A stretch of 36,257 nucleotides of DNA, from IMG/VR virus record IMGVR_UViG_3300035698_002564, positions 1 to 36,257 of that record. One strand, 5' to 3'. The notes beneath the pieces were generated by a model, which worked only from the letters and a program-made list of their open reading frames with translations, had not been told where the DNA came from and made no database searches. A program made the translations under genes and the position numbers. Every line of letters begins with the position of its first letter. Position 1 is the first letter of the stretch. Positions 117 to 28,434 of this stretch are shown piece by piece. Source of the DNA: a virus.

Positions 117-803
117 TTAATTTGCTAAAAATCCACCGAAATACGATGTTAATGTTGAGCCACCTTCTAAATCATTTATTTGAGTACCACCAGAGACATT
201 AACAAATGAATATACTGTATCTGCAGCATCTAAATATGCAATAGTTCCACCACTAATTAATGTAGGACCATAATTCATATCTGATCTATTAATAAAAAAA
301 ATTTGATTCGTAGCTCTTATATATATTCCACAATCTTTATTAGCAGCTAAAATATCTAATAAACTACATCCGATATTAAATTGATATCTTCCATTAACCG
401 GTGCTGTAAATACTCCGTCATCATCATAATCTGAGCTTTGATCAAAGACTGTTGTATTATTATCATCACATATTTTATATGAAGCGCCATTTCCTGTTAT
501 GTTTAAAACGGTTGTATTAACGTATGCCATAAATGCCGGCTGTATCTGTAAATTAATTTCACCATTTGCTGTTGGACTAATAATAGTTCCTGTTGCAGAT
601 GAAAGTGTAAAACCACCAGTACCAAATTTTAAATCAAGAGACGATGCTCCAGTAGTATTACCTATTGTAGTAACTCTATCGGCGGCACCTGTTGCTATGT
701 TTATTGCACCAGACGTTGCGTCTGTTCCTACTGAGAATGTACCACCATTAAATGTTACATCTACATCAAGAACTTGATTTGCCCATGAATTTTGTGTTGT
801 CAT
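117..803 (-). CDS. C1q-like tail tip protein, copy 3
   Basis: A 228-residue protein, last of three tandem paralogues. Residues about 1-65 form a glycine/threonine-rich beta-repeat segment (NGGTFSVGTDATSG, then ITTIGN-type motifs) also found in the long fibre at 5211-7958. Residues about 85-228 resemble a C1q/TNF-like trimeric beta-sandwich, with the hallmark FTAPVNGRYQF near residue 135 and a D-A-A-D-T segment near 195. Such domains usually form trimeric tips that bind the host surface. The start has an AGGAGG ribosome site. Compared with its two neighbours the N-terminal half is nearly identical and the last ~80 residues diverge, as expected for a receptor-facing end. The C1q-like fold is inferred from motif pattern only. 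Confidence 0.7.
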   Translation of the reverse strand: MTTQNSWANQVLDVDVTFNGGTFSVGTDATSGAINIATGAADRVTTIGNTTGASSLDLKFGTGGFTLSSATGTIISPTANGEINLQIQPAFMAYVNTTVLNITGNGASYKICDDNNTTVFDQSSDYDDDGVFTAPVNGRYQFNIGCSLLDILAANKDCGIYIRATNQIFFINRSDMNYGPTLISGGTIAYLDAADTVYSFVNVSGGTQINDLEGGSTLTSYFGGFLAN

Positions 804-812
804 TTTTCCTCC

Positions 813-1541
813 TTAACATACTAAATAAATACTAATGTAAACATATATATTTTTACTTACTCCTACAGGTCCTTGTACTCCCATTATATCACCAGAGCCA
901 TTCGAAATTTTGATGGTAACATGTGCGGTATCTGCAGCATCCATTTCAAAAAAAGAATAACCTCTTGTTATTTTATTAATAACACCAACTATAGTAGGTG
1001 AAGGTACGTATGCAGTCCCTTGTAAAAGAATAATATCCTGATTTGATGTAACTATTTTATATGTAAACGCTGTCATAGCTGGTTCACATTCTCCAAAAAA
1101 TTTACAATAACCATTAAATTGATATCTTCCATTGACTGGAGCTGTAAATACTCCGTCATCATCATAATCTGAATTATTATCAAATGAAGTAGTATTATTA
1201 TCATCGCATATTTTATATTCAGCACCATTACCTGTTACATTTGCAACATTTAAATTAACATATGCCAGAAACGATGGCTGTAATGGTTTTGTTATTTCTC
1301 CAGTATTAAATACGTGCATACTAGTCCCAGAATTAACATCTAAAGTAAAATCACCAGTTCCAAATTTTAAATCAAGAGACGATGCTCCAGTAATGTTCCC
1401 AATAGTAGTAACTCTATCGGCAGCGCCTGTTGCTATGTTTATTACGTCAGATGTTGCGTCTGTTCCCGCTGAGAATGTACCACCGTTAAACGTTACATCT
1501 GCATCAAGAACTTGATTATTCCATGAATTTTGTTTTGCCAT
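813..1541 (-). CDS. C1q-like tail tip protein, copy 2
   Basis: A 242-residue paralogue of the flanking genes, 7 bases downstream of the gene ending at 1549. It has the same layout: N-terminal beta-repeat segment shared with the fibres, then a C1q-like core with FTAPVNGRYQF, then a divergent C-terminal third (aromatic and hydrophobic segments around GYSFFEMDAADT and a YVYISIYLVC end). The start MAKQNSWNNQ has a GGAG ribosome site at the right distance. The likely role is a virion receptor-binding or tip protein. It may be one of several alternative or hetero-assembled tips; the sequence cannot say whether all three are built into one particle. Confidence 0.68.
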   Translation of the reverse strand: MAKQNSWNNQVLDADVTFNGGTFSAGTDATSDVINIATGAADRVTTIGNITGASSLDLKFGTGDFTLDVNSGTSMHVFNTGEITKPLQPSFLAYVNLNVANVTGNGAEYKICDDNNTTSFDNNSDYDDDGVFTAPVNGRYQFNGYCKFFGECEPAMTAFTYKIVTSNQDIILLQGTAYVPSPTIVGVINKITRGYSFFEMDAADTAHVTIKISNGSGDIMGVQGPVGVSKNIYVYISIYLVC

Positions 1542-1548
1542 ATGACTC

Positions 1549-2244
1549 CTATATCATTAAAAACCCACTAAATATAGAATACGCAGAAGCGCCTCCTATA
1601 ATATCTGCAGTGTCACCACCTCCATTTGATAATGTAATTGTAGCATATGAAGTATCTGCAGCATCCATATCAGTCATAATTACACTGCTTTGTGTTATAG
1701 GTGGGTAATCCGTATTAAAAAAACCTTTAGATATTTCATATGTTCTATTGCTAGTAACAATTTTAAATAATCCAATAGTCATGCTTACATCTGTATCGCT
1801 AATTGTCATTGTAGAATTAAATTGATATCTTCCATTAACCGGTGCTGTAAATACTCCGTCATCATCATAATCTGAGCTTTGATCAAAGACTGTTGTATTA
1901 TTATCATCGCATATTTTATATTCAGCACCATTTCCTGTTATGTTTAAAACGGTTGTATTAACGTATGCCATAAATGATGGTTGTAACGGATAGTTAATTT
2001 CTCCTGTGCCATGTGAATTAATAATAGTTCCTGTTGAATTTGCTAAAGTAAAATCACCAGTTCCAAATTTTAAATCAAGAGACGATGCTCCAGTAATGTT
2101 CCCAATAGTAGTAACTCTATCGGCAGCACCTGTTGCTATGTTTATTGCACCAGATGTTGCGTCTGTTCCTACTGAGAATGTACCACCGATAAATGAGACA
2201 TTAGCATCAAGAACCTGATTGTCCCATGAATTTTGTGTTGTCAT
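1549..2244 (-). CDS. C1q-like tail tip protein, copy 1
   Basis: A 231-residue protein, first of the three tandem tip genes in transcription order. It follows the fibre gene at 2253-4577 by 8 bases and starts with the same AGGAGGAAAA-ATG leader as copy 3. The N-terminal ~65 residues are almost identical to the other copies; the C1q-like core has YKICDDNNTT followed by FTAPVNGRYQF; the C-terminal ~80 residues are distinct (DTSYATITLSNGGGD region). The small shared N-terminal block probably mediates trimer formation or attachment to the same fibre scaffold, leaving the tip free to vary. Function is inferred from domain pattern and position. Confidence 0.68.
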   Translation of the reverse strand: MTTQNSWDNQVLDANVSFIGGTFSVGTDATSGAINIATGAADRVTTIGNITGASSLDLKFGTGDFTLANSTGTIINSHGTGEINYPLQPSFMAYVNTTVLNITGNGAEYKICDDNNTTVFDQSSDYDDDGVFTAPVNGRYQFNSTMTISDTDVSMTIGLFKIVTSNRTYEISKGFFNTDYPPITQSSVIMTDMDAADTSYATITLSNGGGDTADIIGGASAYSIFSGFLMI

Positions 2245-2252
2245 TTTTCCTC

Positions 2253-4577
2253 CTAAATTACAGCTATATTTCCAATCATACTAGTAGTTGACCAGGTTGT
2301 ATTTGCAACTGTGCATCTAAGTCTAACACAATCTGCTGCGTGAGTAGCTGTTAATGACCCACCAGCTCCGACTGTAGTTGTTTGATTGCCAATAACTACA
2401 CTTTGACCTGCGGCTTGTGTTATAGACCATAGTCCTTGCATTCCAACAATTTCTAAAGTTGTGCCTACTGCTGCTGTACCTGGCAATGAAAACGCAACAC
2501 CACCAGCCCTATTTGCACCGTATGTTTCATTAATTACCATTGCTTTTGTAGCGGCAGTTATCTCAGAATATAGTCCGTCTATTGTATCTACGCTTAGATC
2601 TAATGTCCCAGCACCAGTTGTAATTGTAACGCTAGAATCAGCACTAGCAATTGTACCAACTACTGGGGCAACGCCTGTTGATCCAATTATCAACATTCCA
2701 TTTGTCATTGCCCCAAATTCGTCTAATTCACCACCTGTTGAATAATAGGCTACTCTATTTGCAGTCATATTTATAAGTCTTGCATTACCTGAAATTGATC
2801 TAACTCCAGCTATTGTAAGAGTGCCTGCCAATGATGTATTGCTAGTAAAATCTACTCCAGTTAATGTTAATATTCCAGCTCCAGAACCACTAATTGCTGG
2901 ATTATTTGATGATTCAATTATTGTGCTACTAATATCAACTATACCCGCTGATCCATGATTTATAGATGCTGTAGCCCCAGTAGAAAAAGAACAATTTGCA
3001 ACATCAAATGTTGATGTTCCTGCCGTTGTAAGTGTTTTTGAAAAAACAGATCCTCTTGAAGATGAAAAAGTAGTGCTCCCTGCGATAGAAATTGCACATC
3101 CTATTGTGCAGTCTATTATTAATAAAGTCCCGCCAGATTTAGTTAAAACATTAGTACTAATTCCTAGTGTAGAACTTCTAATTTCACAATATGATGTAGA
3201 TGTATTATTAACAATTCCATTATTAGTAGAGATATCTGAACAATTTAAAATTCCTAAATATCCAGTCCAATTTGGAAGATCAAATATATATCCATTTGTT
3301 AAACCGAAATAACAATTTCTTAATACTATCGGAGCTGTACCTGCTGAAGCTGAAGAAAATATATCTCCACTTGTTGCTAAAAGATAACAGTCTTCAATTA
3401 AGCAAGTAGATCCAGATGTAGGTAATGTATGTGTTCCAGTTATTCGTGTTTGAGAACCATCTCCACTGAATGTTTGTTGTGAATAAAAAGTTAAATTTTC
3501 TGAATATGCTCCAGCTCTCACATGTATACGTCTAGGTGCTCCATCTGCATTTGCTGCATTTAATGCTGATTGTATTGTTGTGTATGGAGTACCACCTGTT
3601 GCGTCAACTACATATTCTGTTATTCCTGGAACTGCGTCTGCTAAATCAATTGTTCCAGCACCATTTGTAATTGTTATAGTTGAATTTGTGCTTGTAAGAT
3701 TTGCAGCTACTGGATCAGCACCAACAGATCCAATTACCAATTGTCCATTTGTTAGCACCGATGTGTAAGATAATGCTGCTGTAGTCCCTGATCCTAATGC
3801 GATTCCATGATCTGTTTGAGTTCCTAGTTTCGCTTTTAGAGAGCTTGGATTAATTACATGATAATCTGTCGCTGTGCCTGATATTGATTCTGCATCAGTA
3901 GCTAATTCTACAACACCTTTCTGTGTTACAGTTGAGTCTGCCATTGTTAATGTAACAGTGCTGCCTGCACCTGCAGATGTTATTCCTTGTGCTGTTGTTC
4001 CTAGAACATTTAAAACTCCTGCTGCTGGTGTTGCTGTACCTGAATCTGTAACATAAGATTTGGCTATAGTTACTCCAGCCTCTAAATTTATTGTTCCAGC
4101 ACCATTTGTTATCGCAATTGTTGATCCTGTAGATGTTAAATTTGCTAATACTGGATCGACACCTACTGATCCAATAAGCAACTGTCCATTTGTTAGCGCA
4201 GATGTATAAGATAATGCTGCTGCAGTACCAGATCCTAATGTAATTCCATGATCTGTTTGAGTTCCTAGTTTCGCTTTTAGAGAGCTTGGATTAATTACAT
4301 GATAATCTGTCGCTGTGCCTGATATTGATTCCGCATCTGTAGCTAATTCTACAACACCTTTCTGTGTTACAGTTGAGTCTGCCATTGTTAATGTAACAGT
4401 GCTGCCTGCACCTGCAGATGTTATTCCTTGTGCTGTTGTTCCTAGAACATTTAAAGACCCAGCTGCTGGGGTTGCTGTGCCTGCATCTGTAACAAAATCA
4501 CTTGCATATGTGCCTGGCACAACTGTATCATTTACAATATCAAATTCGCCTGATAATGGATTATATTTGTATCCCAT
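2253..4577 (-). CDS. Tail fibre with tandem repeats and beta-helix-like centre
   Basis: A 774-residue fibre protein with an AAGGAG ribosome site. Residues ~1-30 (MGYKYNPLSGEFDIVN) look like a fibre attachment start seen in phage tail proteins. Residues ~30-325 contain a 147-residue unit in two near-identical copies (TPAAGSLNVLGTTAQGITSA, then VTLTMADSTVTQKGVVELAT, then NPSSLKAKLGTQTDHG). Residues ~325-620 read like a right-handed beta-helix (short turns with repeated T/S/I, RIHVRAGAYSENLTF, EDCYLLATSGD), a fold used in tailspikes that may bind or cleave surface sugars. The C-terminal ~150 residues are a fibre end. No catalytic residues can be assigned. It lies in the tail operon between the adapter-like 4586 gene and the tip array. 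Confidence 0.7.
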   Translation of the reverse strand: MGYKYNPLSGEFDIVNDTVVPGTYASDFVTDAGTATPAAGSLNVLGTTAQGITSAGAGSTVTLTMADSTVTQKGVVELATDAESISGTATDYHVINPSSLKAKLGTQTDHGITLGSGTAAALSYTSALTNGQLLIGSVGVDPVLANLTSTGSTIAITNGAGTINLEAGVTIAKSYVTDSGTATPAAGVLNVLGTTAQGITSAGAGSTVTLTMADSTVTQKGVVELATDAESISGTATDYHVINPSSLKAKLGTQTDHGIALGSGTTAALSYTSVLTNGQLVIGSVGADPVAANLTSTNSTITITNGAGTIDLADAVPGITEYVVDATGGTPYTTIQSALNAANADGAPRRIHVRAGAYSENLTFYSQQTFSGDGSQTRITGTHTLPTSGSTCLIEDCYLLATSGDIFSSASAGTAPIVLRNCYFGLTNGYIFDLPNWTGYLGILNCSDISTNNGIVNNTSTSYCEIRSSTLGISTNVLTKSGGTLLIIDCTIGCAISIAGSTTFSSSRGSVFSKTLTTAGTSTFDVANCSFSTGATASINHGSAGIVDISSTIIESSNNPAISGSGAGILTLTGVDFTSNTSLAGTLTIAGVRSISGNARLINMTANRVAYYSTGGELDEFGAMTNGMLIIGSTGVAPVVGTIASADSSVTITTGAGTLDLSVDTIDGLYSEITAATKAMVINETYGANRAGGVAFSLPGTAAVGTTLEIVGMQGLWSITQAAGQSVVIGNQTTTVGAGGSLTATHAADCVRLRCTVANTTWSTTSMIGNIAVI
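3808..4461. repeat. 441-bp tandem duplication inside fibre gene
   Basis: Two direct copies offset by exactly 441 bp (147 codons). The best-matching cores are about 3808-4020 and 4249-4461, identical apart from a few bases. Flanking parts of the unit are clearly related but more diverged. The unit length is a multiple of three, so copy number can change without breaking the fibre frame. The high identity of the core against its diverged flanks points to recent duplication or gene conversion. Confidence 0.85.
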
Positions 4578-23230: not shown

Positions 23231-23560
23231 TTACCATTTTAATAGCATGAACTTAAGTTCATATGTATTTGTTTTTGGAATACTAATGGATGGGATTATG
23301 TATGAATCGTCCTGTGTTATCTCTAGTTCGTTACCACGCTTCTCTTCTTCGTTAATTTCAGGTTCGGTAGCCTCATCAGCATTAGTATTTGATAATTCTT
23401 CGACTTTCTTCTTAAGTTCAACGCACTCAGCGGTACGTTCCATAAGAAGTTCTTCTATTTTTTGTTCTTGTTCTGTATTTTGTCTATTAGCATGGCACTT
23501 TAATGCTACCTCGCAGCTAATAAACATAAAAATTATTGTAATGAATAATATCGTCTTCAT
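23231..23560 (-). CDS. Lipoprotein with coiled coil (outer spanin-like?)
   Basis: A 109-residue protein. The N-terminal signal MKTILFITIIFMFISC ends in a lipobox (F-I-S-C16), predicting export and lipidation at Cys16. Residues ~25-60 are a charged coiled coil (EQEQKIEELLMERTAECVEL), followed by an acidic low-complexity stretch and a C-terminal IPSISIPKTNTYELKFML. Lipoprotein plus coiled coil is the layout of an outer-membrane spanin or an exclusion/adhesion lipoprotein. It ends the small membrane-protein cassette upstream of the portal. Only a weak ribosome site is visible. Confidence 0.5.
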   Translation of the reverse strand: MKTILFITIIFMFISCEVALKCHANRQNTEQEQKIEELLMERTAECVELKKKVEELSNTNADEATEPEINEEEKRGNELEITQDDSYIIPSISIPKTNTYELKFMLLKW

Positions 23561-23580
23561 TCTTTTAAAATATGTCTTAA

Positions 23581-23910
23581 TTATTTATTGTCAAGTGTTT
23601 TTTTTGTTTTATCTTTACTTGGCCTTCTAATACCATTATTGATTATGACAAAATTCTCCCTGTCTTCTGGTGAAATATCTACATTTTTAAACAACACATC
23701 GACCCTATCACCTAAAGAAAACATATAATCTCGCATGCTTTCAGCCACCTCTTCTTCTTTTTCCATTATCCAAGCTAGTTTATCTATCCTTGAATTAAAT
23801 TTCTCAAAGGACTCCGCTTGTTTTAATTTAATAATCAAAGCAAAAAAAATCATTCCAATTATAACACCAATAGATGCCGCTAATGAAACGCACAATACCA
23901 TAATATCCAT
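23581..23910 (-). CDS. One-pass membrane protein with coiled coil (inner spanin-like?)
   Basis: A 109-residue protein. Residues ~3-28 form one transmembrane helix (VSLAASIGVIIGMIFFALII). Residues ~29-85 are a charged coiled coil (KQAESFEKFNSRIDKLAWIM). The C-terminus is basic. The topology of a short N-terminal anchor plus a long coil matches inner-membrane spanins (Rz-like), here placed next to two lipoprotein genes. The ATG follows an AGAGGAAG ribosome site lying within the 45-bp repeat also found at 24460-24504. Confidence 0.45.
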   Translation of the reverse strand: MDIMVLCVSLAASIGVIIGMIFFALIIKLKQAESFEKFNSRIDKLAWIMEKEEEVAESMRDYMFSLGDRVDVLFKNVDISPEDRENFVIINNGIRRPSKDKTKKTLDNK

Positions 23911-23952
23911 ACTAATCTTCCTCTTTTACTTTATCACTACTTTGATTCTTTT
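23908..23952. repeat. 45-bp direct repeat, copy 1
   Basis: This segment and 24460-24504 are identical except for one base. On the minus strand each copy carries the end of the upstream gene, the AGAGGAAG ribosome site and the next ATG. In this copy the upstream gene reads KNQSSDKVKEED-stop, while in the other the same bases end the lipoprotein in a different frame (GSKESK-stop). The repeat probably marks the ends of a duplicated module or allows recombination between them. Confidence 0.8.
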
Positions 23953-24205
23953 TACTATCATTATAGGTTAGATCCTTAAGAAATTCGGACAATCCTCTGA
24001 TATCGTTTTCTAATGAAGAAAGCCTATTGCTTAAGTCTTCAATAGCGTCTTTGTTGATTTTTACATCCATCATTAATTGAAATACGGTTAAGCCAGATTC
24101 AACTTCTTTGATCTTACTTTGTTTATTAATAAACCCATAAGACCAAGTGCCAATCGCAGTCCCAATAATAGAACCTATCGTAACACATAATAACGTAATA
24201 TACAT
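23912..24205 (-). CDS. One-pass membrane protein with coiled coil, paralogue
   Basis: A 97-residue protein from the ATG at 24205, chosen because GAGG lies at the proper distance; an in-frame ATG at 24217 lacks a site. Residues ~1-25 (MYITLLCVTIGSIIGTAIGT) are a membrane helix. Residues ~35-85 carry the coil (MMDVKINKDAIEDLSNRLSS) with heptad hydrophobics. The coil motif D-V-K-[IL]-N-[KR]-D recurs in the next gene upstream (24241-24462: LEADVKLNRDSIKGLRD), so the two are duplicates. Spanin- or holin-associated roles are possible, but none is certain. Confidence 0.5.
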   Translation of the reverse strand: MYITLLCVTIGSIIGTAIGTWSYGFINKQSKIKEVESGLTVFQLMMDVKINKDAIEDLSNRLSSLENDIRGLSEFLKDLTYNDSKKNQSSDKVKEED

Positions 24206-24240
24206 ATTAAACCTCATTCATTTCGTTTTATACTTAATTA

Positions 24241-24462
24241 TTATTCTTTAGAATCGAGTCCTTTGTTTAATTTTGATACTAAATCTCGTAACCCCTTAAT
24301 CGAGTCCCTATTTAATTTCACATCCGCCTCTAAGTTTATAATTTTTATAGCAAACTTACCGTTTATTGTGTTCCTAGCTCTAAAAATAAAATTATAAATA
24401 GACTCCCCAATTAAAAACCCAACAACGCAAGTTATTAAATTACATAAAAACGTATAAATCAT
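24241..24462 (-). CDS. Short membrane protein, coil paralogue
   Basis: A 73-residue protein. Residues ~3-27 are a membrane helix (FLCNLITCVVGFLIGESIYN). Residues ~38-70 are a short coil (IINLEADVKLNRDSIKGLRD) matching the coil of the 23912-24205 protein but truncated. The ATG is preceded by the same 45-bp repeat with AGAGGAAG as the 23910 gene. It looks like a shortened duplicate inside the membrane cassette. Confidence 0.5.
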   Translation of the reverse strand: MIYTFLCNLITCVVGFLIGESIYNFIFRARNTINGKFAIKIINLEADVKLNRDSIKGLRDLVSKLNKGLDSKE

Positions 24463-24504
24463 ACTAATCTTCCTCTTTTACTTTATAACTACTTTGATTC
24501 TTTT
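24460..24504. repeat. 45-bp direct repeat, copy 2
   Basis: Second copy of the 45-bp repeat at 23908-23952 (one mismatch). It covers the 3' end of the 57-residue lipoprotein gene, an AGAGGAAG ribosome site and the ATG of the 73-residue membrane gene. Recombination between copies would delete or duplicate the 24241-24462 and 23912-24205 genes as a unit of about 550 bp. Confidence 0.8.
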
Positions 24505-24662
24505 GAACCAGGAGTAAGATCTATGTCTAGTCCCGTCGTCTCTTCTATTATACTCTCAACAATCTCCTCAAAAACATTGTCTGGATTGTCTTTCTGTAAT
24601 TTAACCATCTTATCACAACTAGGCAATAATGCCAATAATAACATAGGAACTAATTTTAACAT
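24489..24662 (-). CDS. 57-residue lipoprotein (outer spanin-like)
   Basis: An ATG at 24662 overlaps the stop of the upstream gene (ATGTTAA) and has TGGGGT upstream. The protein begins MLKLVPMLLLALLPSCDKMV, a signal ending in a lipobox (L-P-S-C16), followed by an acidic segment of ~40 residues (NVFEEIVESIIEETTGLDID). Short lipoproteins overlapping or abutting a small membrane-protein gene are characteristic of Rz1-type outer spanins and imply a Gram-negative host envelope. Confidence is high that it is a lipoprotein and moderate for the lysis role. Confidence 0.62.
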   Translation of the reverse strand: MLKLVPMLLLALLPSCDKMVKLQKDNPDNVFEEIVESIIEETTGLDIDLTPGSKESK

Positions 24663-24886
24663 ATATACCCCACAACTATATCTAAAATGAATATAATCAT
24701 AATAAATCGTAGCATTAATTTTTCTTCTCTTTGATTTGTTAATATTTTCTTTATATTGGAATCTTGCGGTGCGTTTCGATATTTTAAAATGGTATGTTGA
24801 AGCGATTTTCTGAATATATAAAAATCAGCCGCGTATAATATCGACACCAATATTGTGATTAATAACAATACTCTAATGTCTATCAT
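24656..24886 (-). CDS. Two-helix membrane protein (holin-like?)
   Basis: A 76-residue protein with two hydrophobic helices, residues ~5-23 (VLLLITILVSILYAADFYIF) and ~58-75 (MLRFIMIIFILDIVVGYIC), joined by a basic loop (KSLQHTILKYRNAPQDSNIK). Size, two helices and neighbouring lipoprotein genes are compatible with a class II holin or a spanin partner. Its ATG overlaps the previous stop (ATGA) and its stop overlaps the lipoprotein ATG, so it is translationally coupled on both sides. Confidence 0.5.
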   Translation of the reverse strand: MIDIRVLLLITILVSILYAADFYIFRKSLQHTILKYRNAPQDSNIKKILTNQREEKLMLRFIMIIFILDIVVGYIC

Positions 24887-25044
24887 TTACTCCAAAATCC
24901 CCGCAAAACACACCTTAGTCTATCTACTATACCGGTCCTTACTGGTTCACTGGGTGCTGAATTTAATTCTTTTGATTTGGTATTTTTATTAACACGGCTA
25001 CAAACTTCTTTACGAATTGTGCCTTTTATACAATCTTTCGTCAT
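24883..25044 (-). CDS. 53-residue basic protein, unknown
   Basis: An ATG at 25044 with an AAAAGGAGACGAT ribosome site opens 53 codons (MTKDCIKGTIRKEVCSRVNK ... VLRGFWSK). It is strongly basic with no membrane helix; the last ~15 residues (GIVDRLRCVLRGFWSK) could form an amphipathic helix. Its stop overlaps the next ATG (ATGA). The strong ribosome site and coupling make it a credible gene. Function not assigned. Confidence 0.6.
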   Translation of the reverse strand: MTKDCIKGTIRKEVCSRVNKNTKSKELNSAPSEPVRTGIVDRLRCVLRGFWSK

Positions 25045-25071
25045 ATCGTCTCCTTTTAGCTATCTCTCTTT

Positions 25072-25200
25072 CTAATACGTTGGCCCTATAATAGCCATAA
25101 ACAAGTAGAATAATATTACATATACTGTTCTTACTATAAAATAATACATAACAGCTTTGCCTATATGAAGCAAGATATGCTTTAAATTAATTCTTGACAT
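25072..25200 (-). CDS. 42-residue single-helix membrane protein
   Basis: An ATG at 25200 behind AAAAGGAGATCAGT opens 42 codons. The N-terminus is basic and amphipathic (MSRINLKHILLHIGKAV), followed by a ~20-residue hydrophobic helix (VYVILFYLFMAIIGPTY). It lies 24 bases after the large terminase stop and begins the membrane-protein cassette. A small holin or pinholin-like protein is possible but unproven. Confidence 0.55.
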   Translation of the reverse strand: MSRINLKHILLHIGKAVMYYFIVRTVYVILFYLFMAIIGPTY

Positions 25201-25224: not shown

Positions 25225-27444
25225 TCAGTACTTATACATCCTCTCTAAATTATCTGCATCTCTTTCTGTAAATGACATGGTAAGATTCTTCTTGAAAAAC
25301 TCTGTAAATAGGGCGTACCTGATTGAATCTAAGCAATTTAGACTTAGTAGCTTATGTGCATAATATCCATGGAAATCTTTAACGTGTAGATTGTAAACGT
25401 CGCCTTCTCCAAGAGTTTTTACATCCACACGACCCTGAACAACATGTTTGTCTAGAGAACCTGTTCGTGTTGAATTCATCACCACAATATTCGCATGTTC
25501 TAAACTCATGATCAAGTTTATTTTCTCGTCTGCATTTACTTTTACAATTATTTCCACAAAATTTAGTATGTTTTGTTTTTCCATCAAACTTTGTTTTACA
25601 TTGAAGGCAGATTCTTTTATAGACAATTCCCCTTGCGTATGGCAATGATCTTTTGCTATGTTTAATGTGCCATTCCCTCCCTTCTTTAGATGCATGCCAT
25701 TTTTTGGTAAGTGGTCTAATTTTGTGGAAGTGCTGCCTTTTCTTTTCTCTCTGCTCGTCAGTAAGTAATTCCTGATGCCTCTTAAAATGCTCTTTGGCAG
25801 ACAATGCCTCGAGGTTGCTAATATCATTGTTTGTGGGATCGTTGTCGATGTGATGTATATGATATTTTTCTGGTATTTCTCCGTTATAGAACTTCCACAC
25901 ATCTCTATGGAGATATCCATATCCATTATACTTGTCTGCGACATGCGCTGTAAAATACTTTCCAGTTCTAACATCTTTGGAGCGTGTATTTCTTCTATAT
26001 TTGATTCCGTTAAAAACAATTGTTTCGATTGGCATACTTTTTCCGATGTATCAATTAAAAATATATCTGATTTTAACAAACCTTTGGCTTCTATCCAACC
26101 TCTATTTGCAGTATAAAACTTATGATTCTTAGTGCATTGTATTTTTCTACCTAGTATATCGTATTCATATATATCGTCCTTATGTATAAAAACCTCTAAT
26201 ACCTCTTTATACCCAACTGGTGTTAAAACTAAGTCACCCTTCTTTATTTCCTCAATTGGCCTTTGCCCGCCTTTCGTTGATATTGGCGTCCCAGCAGCAA
26301 AGCAGTGGTCGTTCTTCTTAACAGGTTTGTCGTCACCCTTATCTGCAGCTTTTGGATCCCATACATAGTTGCTGTATTCTTTGATTGCATTTGTGCAGCA
26401 AGAGCATATTTTAAATGTACCATTTGTAAGTAGCATAGCATGATATCTAATCCCAGCCAGAACATCGTTGTCCCCGTCTATAATGTTATATATTCCATTT
26501 CTATATAGTTCTTGTTTAAACGATGCCGCCGATGGATCTATGTAAATATTCTTAACATAAAATCCAGATATAAATTCTATTAAATCTTGTGCATATTCAT
26601 AGTCAGACTTATGCTTCATCTCTTTTTGAGAATCAAAGTAGTATTCCTTCTCTAGCCACATACGTGGATACCCACCATAACAATAGCCAATTAAAGAAAA
26701 TGCCGTCGGATTAGTTGTACCGTAGTCTATTCCCACAATATAATAATCAGCAACGGACCTGTGCATAGGTATAGTATGGATATTATGGTCAAAAAAATCA
26801 AAAACTGCCCCCTCTGCTTGGACCCATAGGCCCTCTATATATCTCTTATGCCACAATCCCTGATATTCTGCAGATAAATCATCTATGTATTTCTTAGATA
26901 GTGATGGATTGTCGTATATTGAGTATGAAAATACTTTTAAATCTAACTCGCTCTCTCTGTCTATAAAATCTGTTTTAAACCAGTGGAATGGTGAATCTGG
27001 ATTAGTGCTACAAAACATCTTAGCACCATCAATGGAAAGCCTAGACAATAACATTTTAAAGAAATTCTCTGGCATAAGTGAAACTTCGTCAATTAAAGCA
27101 CCGGCAAATTCCGAGCCACGAATTTTACTTTCAGCTCTGTCATCGTTCGCCCCAATTACAAACATAGTGCGATTGTACATGTGTACCTCGCCCTTACCAA
27201 TGCTATACGTAACAGCGGAACCCACTAGCTCTTGAAGTGGTGTTATGATATTTCTTTTAATTGTTTTGTCTGTTCGACCGCAAATTATGAGAGATCCAGG
27301 TGGACCATTTCTGCAGAATTCTATCCATCTTATGAGTGCTATAAATGATTTACCGGCCCTTACTGGACCTTCGAATATATTTATACGAGCATCGGAGTCT
27401 TGAAATGATTCAATTTGTTTTTCGCTTAATTCAGTAAGTGCCAA
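25225..27444 (-). CDS. terL: Terminase large subunit with intein
   Basis: Packaging motor ATPase and nuclease that pumps DNA through the portal. Precursor of 739 residues; without the intein it is 416 residues, the usual TerL size. Walker A is GPVRAGKS (residues 26-33), the Walker B-like strand is GALIDEVS (~115-122), and the coupling motif is CSTNPDSPFHWF. Nuclease acidic residues are D240 (VGIDYGTT), D303 (YIDPSAAS) and D379 (KNDH). The intein lies between H380 and C704; the spliced sequence reads VKKNDH-CLDSIRYA, the classic end of the nuclease domain. Packaging therefore depends on protein splicing. The ATG has no strong AAGGAG but follows the zinc-protein gene by 8 bases. Confidence 0.9.
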   Translation of the reverse strand: MALTELSEKQIESFQDSDARINIFEGPVRAGKSFIALIRWIEFCRNGPPGSLIICGRTDKTIKRNIITPLQELVGSAVTYSIGKGEVHMYNRTMFVIGANDDRAESKIRGSEFAGALIDEVSLMPENFFKMLLSRLSIDGAKMFCSTNPDSPFHWFKTDFIDRESELDLKVFSYSIYDNPSLSKKYIDDLSAEYQGLWHKRYIEGLWVQAEGAVFDFFDHNIHTIPMHRSVADYYIVGIDYGTTNPTAFSLIGYCYGGYPRMWLEKEYYFDSQKEMKHKSDYEYAQDLIEFISGFYVKNIYIDPSAASFKQELYRNGIYNIIDGDNDVLAGIRYHAMLLTNGTFKICSCCTNAIKEYSNYVWDPKAADKGDDKPVKKNDHCFAAGTPISTKGGQRPIEEIKKGDLVLTPVGYKEVLEVFIHKDDIYEYDILGRKIQCTKNHKFYTANRGWIEAKGLLKSDIFLIDTSEKVCQSKQLFLTESNIEEIHAPKMLELESILQRMSQTSIMDMDISIEMCGSSITEKYQKNIIYITSTTIPQTMILATSRHCLPKSILRGIRNYLLTSREKRKGSTSTKLDHLPKNGMHLKKGGNGTLNIAKDHCHTQGELSIKESAFNVKQSLMEKQNILNFVEIIVKVNADEKINLIMSLEHANIVVMNSTRTGSLDKHVVQGRVDVKTLGEGDVYNLHVKDFHGYYAHKLLSLNCLDSIRYALFTEFFKKNLTMSFTERDADNLERMYKY
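25336..26304 (-). mobile_element. Intein in terminase (residues 381-703)
   Basis: Self-splicing protein element of 323 residues. Block A starts with the catalytic Cys: CFAAGTPISTKGGQRPIEE. Block B has T438-K-N-H441 in CTKNHKFYTANRGW. Block F is GDVYNLHVKDFHGYYA. It ends LLSLN703 followed by the first C-extein residue C704. The penultimate residue is Leu instead of the usual His, an atypical but known kind of deviation. Residues ~470-680 of the terminase frame match no known endonuclease; that DNA encodes an HNH endonuclease in another frame. Confidence 0.9.
25379..26035 (-). CDS. HNH homing endonuclease nested out of frame in intein
   Basis: A 218-residue HNH endonuclease whose frame is shifted by two bases relative to the terminase. 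Residues ~1-50 are a small DNA-binding module (FNGIKYRRNTRSKDVRTGKY). The HNH core is Y-H-I-HHIDNDPTNNDISNLEAL with H-F-K-R-H (~56-88). The C-terminal ~80 residues carry Cys-rich zinc-finger-like units (CLQCKTKF...CGNNCKSKC; CEYCGDEF). It starts at ATG 26035 behind GGAAAA, just after intein block B, and ends at 25379, within block F. It thus occupies exactly the place of an in-frame intein endonuclease but must be translated separately. It would cut intein-less terL genes to promote homing. Confidence 0.88.
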   Translation of the reverse strand: MPIETIVFNGIKYRRNTRSKDVRTGKYFTAHVADKYNGYGYLHRDVWKFYNGEIPEKYHIHHIDNDPTNNDISNLEALSAKEHFKRHQELLTDEQREKKRQHFHKIRPLTKKWHASKEGREWHIKHSKRSLPYARGIVYKRICLQCKTKFDGKTKHTKFCGNNCKSKCRRENKLDHEFRTCEYCGDEFNTNRFSRQTCCSGSCGCKNSWRRRRLQSTR

Positions 27445-27452
27445 TTGTCTTC

Positions 27453-28037
27453 TTAATCTTTAATTTTATATACTTTAAATAAATATCTTATCGTATTGTT
27501 AAACGACATGTGCATTAAGTTCATTATAAATGCTATCTCATCACCAGAGGACATACAGTTGTAGCAATGGTATGTGTGGCGCTTATTATCAAAAATAAAA
27601 GCCTCATCGCATCCACAAAATGGACATTTGTACACATCGTACTTAGCAGGGTTTTTTAATTTATGCGGAAGTTCTTTTATAATATCATTGAAGTTAACCC
27701 TGGACTTCAGCTCTTTATAATTGCTTTCGTTTAATTCTTTTTTATCTTTTGGTGGATCGCCGTTTAGAATATCTATACCAAACACTCCGCATATATATTT
27801 AACTGCCTTGCTAAGTGGCCAATTTTTATACTGCATAAGAAATGACGTTTCATCGCCGCATTCTCTGCAATTATAACAAAAAAACGTGTGTGAATTATCA
27901 TCAAATGTAAGTGATTTAGCCGATTCACAGAATGGACACTCAAACTTTTGATATAGTTCTACGTGCTTTGCGAACACCCCAAAAGTCCTTAGTATCTTAG
28001 ATAAATTCATCTTCTTTATCTCGTCATCATTAAACAT
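27453..28037 (-). CDS. Protein with two CHC2-type zinc fingers
   Basis: A 194-residue protein from ATG 28037 (an in-frame TTG at 28094 inside terS is less likely). It carries two copies of a primase-type zinc-binding unit: C-P-F-C...F-F-C-Y-N-C with GDETSFLM, and C-P-F-C...Y-H-C-Y-N-C with GDEIAFIM, each followed by a helix and a W/H-[LM]-[SF]-x-[AT]-[IV]-[KR]-Y segment. In DnaG-type primases one such unit precedes the TOPRIM catalytic domain, but no TOPRIM domain is present here. It is therefore unlikely to be a primase itself and may bind single-stranded or special DNA sites. It sits between small and large terminase, so it may take part in packaging-site recognition. Its ATG lies four bases after the terS stop. 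Confidence 0.7.
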   Translation of the reverse strand: MFNDDEIKKMNLSKILRTFGVFAKHVELYQKFECPFCESAKSLTFDDNSHTFFCYNCRECGDETSFLMQYKNWPLSKAVKYICGVFGIDILNGDPPKDKKELNESNYKELKSRVNFNDIIKELPHKLKNPAKYDVYKCPFCGCDEAFIFDNKRHTYHCYNCMSSGDEIAFIMNLMHMSFNNTIRYLFKVYKIKD

Positions 28038-28041
28038 AATG

Positions 28042-28434
28042 CTATTCTTTTTCTTTGTCTTTTTCAGCTTTCTTGCCTTCCTTTCCCTTGCCAATAGATT
28101 TTATATGGTCTAGAAATTCGGCTAGTTTGCCATTAAACTCAAGCCCACCTCTAGGGTCATCCCTTTGAGCAAGCCGTTGTTTACCGAGCCAAATTAACAT
28201 AGGAATACTTCCCTTAAGAGCAACCTCAAACTGCTTTGAATGTATGAATGAGTCACCCTTGGCACGCTTAGATGCCTTGTACTCCTTAGTAGTAACTCCC
28301 TTGTCCCGAAGAATTCCGTTTATTAATGCCCTATCACTAATGCCAAGTGCTGATGCTACCTGATTTGCATTACATCCAGACACAAATAATCTGTCTATCA
28401 GTTCCCAGTCTAATTTATATGGTTTTGATGTCAT
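28042..28434 (-). CDS. terS: Terminase small subunit, putative
   Basis: A 130-residue protein. Residues ~9-45 form a helix-turn-helix (LIDRLFVSGCNANQVASALG) of the kind used for DNA recognition. Residues ~75-95 have the pattern PMLIWLGKQRLAQRDDP found in several phage small terminases. The C-terminus is a Lys/Glu-rich tail (GKGKEGKKAEKDKEKE). Its ATG overlaps the stop of the ParB-like gene (ATGA). Position two genes before TerL supports a small terminase that selects the packaging start. Confidence 0.6.
   Translation of the reverse strand: MTSKPYKLDWELIDRLFVSGCNANQVASALGISDRALINGILRDKGVTTKEYKASKRAKGDSFIHSKQFEVALKGSIPMLIWLGKQRLAQRDDPRGGLEFNGKLAEFLDHIKSIGKGKEGKKAEKDKEKE

Follow-up and report, generated by a model that had tools for sequence, protein, structure and literature searches.

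Inteins are usually described either with a homing endonuclease fused in frame or without one. An intein in the large terminase (TerL) gene of the viral record IMGVR_UViG_3300035698_002564, whose full 36,257 nucleotides we refer to as the window, raises the question of how one segment of DNA can be kept open in two reading frames, one belonging to the terminase and the other to an HNH endonuclease. We find that amino-acid selection acts on the HNH frame, and that the overlapping terminase frame appears from sequence comparisons to be constrained only to avoid stops. Our preferred reading, to which we assign a probability of roughly 83%, is that the element is a mini-intein of class 1 with a homing endonuclease gene set into its splicing domain in the +2 frame, and that the HNH protein is made separately and spreads the intein.

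A terminase intein with a nested HNH gene

Profile searches assign the host open reading frame (ORF) to NCBIfam TIGR01547 (E = 1.7e-40) and to Pfam Terminase_6N. The features of the locus are as follows, where pLDDT is the predicted local distance difference test score of AlphaFold models.

25225–27444, minus strand: TerL (PBSX-family large terminase) precursor ORF; TTG start, stop-free across the intein
26305–27444, minus strand: TerL N-extein
25225–25335, minus strand: TerL C-extein
25336–26304, minus strand: TerL intein, 969 nt or 323 residues, Cys1 to Asn323; Pfam Hint_2 and Intein_splicing
26041–26304, minus strand: N-terminal splicing half, intein residues 1–88, with blocks A and B; pLDDT ~95 except for the last residues
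25444–26040, minus strand: TerL-frame linker, intein residues 89–287; predicted disordered, pLDDT mostly 30–55
25336–25443, minus strand: C-terminal splicing half, intein residues 288–323, with blocks F and G; pLDDT 91–96
26051–26053, minus strand: in-frame TGA stop of the HNH reading, 15 nt ahead of its ATG
26038–26044, minus strand: weak Shine-Dalgarno-like GGAAAAA before the HNH ATG; duplex −3.5 kcal/mol
25379–26035, minus strand: nested HNH endonuclease ORF, 218 residues, in the +2 (= −1) frame relative to TerL; stop codon 25381–25379
25787–25915, minus strand: HNH_3 catalytic domain, HNH residues 41–83 (HIHHID...NNDISNLE...H); Pfam HNH_3 E = 8e-16
25427–25609, minus strand: two Cys clusters resembling zinc fingers in the HNH protein, C143/C146/C160/C164 and C181/C184/C199/C203

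A first-pass annotation, made from the sequence alone, had placed an intein with recognizable splicing blocks at the Asp-His of the TerL nuclease active site. Its coordinates proved exact: the codon for Cys1 begins at 26304 and that for the final Asn ends at 25336. The insertion lies between the His and the Cys(+1) of NDH/CLDSIRY (the slash marks the junction), beside the catalytic Asp of the nuclease domain, and intein-free relatives show an uninterrupted junction at the same TerL site. The sequence has the features of a class 1 intein, with a Cys1 in block A (CFAAGT) that is invariant in alignments A2 and A5, the TxxH of block B (CTKNH, with T58 and H61) in the same alignments, and a block F/G, DVYNLHVKDFHGYYAHKLLSLN followed by C, in which the C-terminal Asn323 precedes Cys(+1). 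AlphaFold predicts two confident HINT halves joined by a disordered linker of 199 residues, and Foldseek matches these halves to the gp41-1 (E = 6.9e-6, probability 1.00), DnaB, and CthBIL inteins, in agreement with a HINT fold.

The same annotation had described a complete endonuclease of 218 residues in a frame shifted by two bases, with a zinc-finger-like C terminus, and our searches bear this out. The residues H61, H62, N70, N74, and H83 of the HNH catalytic motif are invariant in alignments A1 and A6, as are all eight cluster cysteines in the 40 sequences of alignment A6; some shorter homologs retain only the first cluster. The HNH reading is modeled with a pLDDT of 96, and its C terminus overlaps the start of the C-terminal splicing half by ~20 codons.

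Amino-acid selection in one frame, openness in the other

The arrangement is a recurrent and widespread conserved family in phages of bacteria and archaea rather than a single oddity. An open TerL frame with an HNH gene in the +2 frame was found at 21/21 loci in viral contigs, at 73 of 80 in a wider viral scan (the HNH ORF being broken at three of the 73), and at 11 of 18 in bacterial and archaeal genomes, where the carriers belong to Thermoplasmatota, Bacteroidota, Omnitrophota, Myxococcota, Actinomycetota, and Pseudomonadota. Four phage-database records (Tetrasphaera phage TJE1, Acinetobacter phage Highwayman, a faecal contig, and LS06) add further examples. In-frame homologs, which had been suggested as a check, were not found among the 85 distinct HNH proteins whose genes lie inside TerL inteins; the HNH gene of the window and all 85 of these occupy the +2 frame, unlike the in-frame fusion of a bifunctional intein. 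A scan based on the intein N-half only, which carries no bias toward HNH genes, likewise gave no case at the TerL site of an HNH of this family in frame with the intein. The first-pass annotation had named paired sequencing indels and homologs with TerL-frame stops as grounds on which its reading could fail. Paired indels are excluded because independent metagenome contigs and the GenBank phages TJE1, Highwayman, and LS06-2018-MD07 share the layout, and stops in the TerL frame were found in none of the 85 nested homologs.

That such a frame would hardly stay open without selection had been proposed from the window sequence, and the calculations agree. In our main chance test, synonymous codons for the window HNH protein were drawn from the usage of the other window genes; the same protein would then bring 7.3 TerL-frame stops on average, with a probability of 5e-5 of having none. 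When the codons are reshuffled within the HNH gene, which is itself already biased, that probability is 0.015. Over 76 homologous loci, ~379 stops are expected and 0 are observed. Seven free-standing HNH relatives contain from 1 to 12 stops in the equivalent frame, in comparison with 0 in 22 nested genes. Methionine codons followed by A, which create TGA in the TerL frame, occur at 0/50 Met in nested genes versus 15/31 in eight controls, one of which, L003 (phage CL2), is a split-intein locus rather than a free-standing gene; the other seven controls stand.

Openness by itself does not tell which frame encodes a selected protein, and a comparison of constraint in both frames had been suggested from the start. 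The 29 close pairs compared differ at 1362 first, 1116 second, and 2130 third positions of HNH codons, and in every pair amino-acid identity is higher in the HNH frame than in the TerL frame. The TerL-frame linker is 22.0% identical between distant pairs versus 21.3% for a codon-shuffled null, and we rejected the linker as a selected protein domain on this basis. The codon-position pattern and the null-level linker identity together show, as far as sequence can, that selection preserves the protein encoded in the HNH frame, whereas all that it preserves in the TerL frame is the absence of stops. The view of two functional frames, one of them a linker that must not stop, is thus upheld at the sequence level.

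Probable separate synthesis and mobility, and rival explanations

It had been suggested that the endonuclease is made apart from TerL. An HNH-frame stop lies at most 30 nt upstream of the start in 67/85 nested genes, and a Shine-Dalgarno core precedes 40% of nested HNH starts versus 12% of out-of-frame ATG controls (p = 6e-9); strong sites occur in homologs, and the L057 and L008 genes carry aggaggtgtcaccATG and cggagggaatcacATG, respectively. A consensus scan for an internal promoter gave 11 sites versus 6.4 expected and was not convincing. Because Shine-Dalgarno sites are enriched and in-frame stops lie close to the HNH starts, independent internal initiation is favored and may best account for production of the HNH protein.

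The distribution of the intein is that of a mobile element. Most close TerL relatives (59–76% identity) lack the intein, and those with it are scattered among those without in the tree, where supported branches force at least 12 gains or losses. Four sister pairs (L048/L271, L245/L243, L051/L209, and L018/L216) show clean presence and absence at the same codon junction, the disjunct pattern associated with homing endonucleases. The nested HNH is thus probably the homing enzyme that spreads the intein, as judged from these sequence patterns.

Under our preferred reading, ribosomes that read the terminase mRNA in the TerL frame would produce a precursor in which the splicing halves are joined by the disordered linker of ~200 residues. 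The halves would associate into one fold, excise themselves by splicing, and so re-form the nuclease motif. An internal start at 26035 would give the HNH enzyme as a separate protein, a step favored by the family-wide start-site signals. During coinfection, the enzyme would cut intein-free terL near the DH/C codons, and repair would copy the intein together with its endonuclease. Selection accordingly acts on the HNH protein in its own frame and solely against stops in the TerL frame, as the sequence statistics show. The existence and conservation of both frames, the selection pattern, the folds as predicted, and the patchy spread come directly from the data; splicing, separate translation, cleavage, and homing are inferred.

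Several observations weigh against this reading. A Leu precedes the last intein Asn in the window copy, where His is usual. The Shine-Dalgarno sequence of the window HNH is weak, and some nested HNH genes start with GTG or lack a visible Shine-Dalgarno sequence. When the HNH model is compared with folds in the PDB, I-HmuI ranks first at a nonsignificant E = 1.1, and a PDB sequence search with the HNH protein returned no match. Finally, no very close pair with and without the intein was found for the window phage, its nearest intein-free TerL being 74–76% identical.

Other accounts can be given of the same locus. A −1 ribosomal frameshift out of the TerL/intein reading would produce a fusion of TerL, the intein N-half (IntN), and HNH, and no free enzyme; the +2 frame is exactly the one that such a shift reaches, and it is conserved. 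Nevertheless, the HNH frame is mostly closed just upstream of its start, slippery heptamers show no conservation (they occur at 7/915 codons close to the start versus 132/31351 in the extein), and the starts carry the Shine-Dalgarno enrichment described above, so we regard frameshifting as unlikely. We hold it equally improbable that the HNH is a packaging nuclease working with the terminase, like gp74 of HK97, rather than a homing enzyme. HNH genes of this family do also stand free beside terL, and gp74 helps the terminase in cos cleavage (PMC10448857). Against this, the HNH has a patchy distribution together with the intein, and no HNH of this family lies in the ~2 kb flanks of 50 of 51 close intein-free TerL genes, only one having it nearby.

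A little less probable still is that the nested HNH is a fossil in a plain mini-intein and that the second frame is open by chance or recent common descent. The HNH is indeed broken in some copies (L051 and L088), decay states in which the TerL frame is still open. Against a fossil stand the codon-position pattern, the higher HNH than linker identity in all close pairs, the invariant catalytic His/Asn and Cys residues, and the HNH fold predicted at high confidence. That the insert is instead an RNA intron with an endonuclease ORF seems highly improbable: although group I introns typically carry HNH enzymes, the TerL frame runs through the insert without interruption and shows intein blocks and a HINT fold, and Rfam gave no intron match even at E ≤ 1.

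Precedents, relatives, and neighboring genes

The first-pass annotation treated the locus by itself; it overlooked the widespread family, its split, mini, and decayed relatives, and the fact that an out-of-frame HNH without an intein is already published (PMC11855218). This last case, ShiLan (2025), is the closest precedent, an insertion in a mycobacteriophage methylase with an out-of-frame HNH and an open host frame. Its authors did not find an intein splicing domain or see a ribosome-binding site and thought that the insert is retained in a nonessential methylase (PMC11855218). Both systems have an HNH in another frame of a stop-free insert, a central HNH with zinc fingers, a proposed internal start, and a patchy spread. 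Unlike that of ShiLan, however, the window HNH lies inside an intein of the essential terminase, flanked by HINT halves, and starts in its family often have a Shine-Dalgarno sequence. The dCTP deaminase intein of cyanophage CL131, which has been shown to excise, combines HintN with an in-frame HNH_3 (PMC6293099); it has the same HINT and HNH_3 domains at the same relative position, but its endonuclease is fused in frame and released within the intein, an arrangement never found in the window family. Mycobacteriophage TerL inteins splice and cut (Kelley et al. 2016, PMC5050341), although these sit in the ATPase domain, whereas the window intein is in the nuclease domain and has an out-of-frame endonuclease. 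In the literature searched, we found no description of an intein with an out-of-frame endonuclease, although Gosselin et al. (bioRxiv 10.1101/2025.01.02.630785, on inteins of actinobacteriophages that have a "non-canonical architecture") or Dassa 2009 may report similar loci.

The nested form has several kinds of relatives. The L155 intein (3001–3453) is a TerL mini-intein of 151 residues whose linker encodes an N-terminal HNH remnant in the +2 frame, and it is an in-frame deletion product. In L151 and L154, TerL contains a mini-intein of 130 residues and a free-standing HNH of this family lies directly downstream, a layout that possibly represents collaborative homing. The L138 intein (3001–3810; 270 residues) has an in-frame linker of ~150 residues of no identified family, and no HNH was found in any of its frames.

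I-HmuI, mentioned above, is an HNH homing endonuclease encoded in a group I intron; it has the HNH catalytic motif in common with the window HNH, whose C-terminal Cys clusters differ. The "fractured genes" of Dassa et al. 2009 are reportedly split inteins with a free-standing endonuclease between the halves, the enzymes being a Vsr-like family. Ten of our relatives likewise have IntN, HNH, and the intein C-half (IntC) on separate ORFs, unlike the window, where one continuous intein ORF overlaps the enzyme.

These ten split loci, L003 (CL2), L078, L082, L094, L119, L121, L122, L123, L126, and L130, encode TerL-IntN, HNH, and IntC-TerL as three ORFs. In every one of them, HNH is in the +2 register to IntC, which matches the nested form, and the register of HNH to IntN varies. 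L082 TerL clusters with the intein-bearing L072 and L110 at a Shimodaira-Hasegawa-like approximate likelihood ratio test (SH-aLRT) value of 99. The shared +2 register to IntC and the grouping of L082 suggest that the nested and split forms share an origin. The HNH tree requires 9 changes between nested, split, and free forms, with weak deep branches. In Lactobacillus phage CL2 (L003, KR905067.1; 454–2771), the GenBank "large subunit terminase" is the N-terminal part of TerL plus the intein N-half, the HNH ORF comes next, and the intein C-half and TerL C terminus are encoded in an unannotated region ahead of the portal gene; judging from this arrangement, the CL2 terminase likely forms by trans-splicing. 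The other nine split loci come from phage contigs and from genome contigs of Bacillota (including Staphylococcus borealis), Patescibacteria, and Termititenax.

Somewhat short of even odds, in our estimate, is the broader idea that the two-frame intein serves as a stable hub in evolution, with natural split terminases such as that of CL2 derived from overlapping-frame inteins or able to interchange with them. As the endonuclease already forms a gene of its own, a split intein would arise from a stop or shift at the 5′ border of the HNH gene, a mini-intein from deletion of the HNH, and a free-standing HNH next to terL from its relocation. The family would offer a testable path among full, mini, and split inteins, as well as a natural case for quantifying two-frame selection. 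Overlapping frames would decouple nuclease dose from terminase synthesis, and tolerance of ~200 arbitrary linker residues may be of use for intein engineering. The TJE1, Highwayman, and LS06 records annotate just TerL at this place, and many "mini-inteins" or "inteins with unknown linkers" of phage terminases may conceal active endonucleases overlooked by annotation.

Elsewhere in the window, positions 23231–25200 (minus strand), from TerL to a P22-type portal gene, hold a series of small ORFs, several of them membrane-protein-like. A preQ1-II riboswitch match at 25042–25143 (minus strand) falls below threshold (24.1 bits, gathering 47, E = 0.32) and is probably due to chance. Directly upstream of TerL, 27453–28094 (minus strand) encodes a stand-alone protein in which Pfam Zn_ribbon_DnaG matches two stretches, each a zinc ribbon of the DnaG CHC2 type. 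Three tandem paralogous ORFs at 117–2244 (minus strand), the first with a C1q domain, possibly encode receptor-binding proteins.
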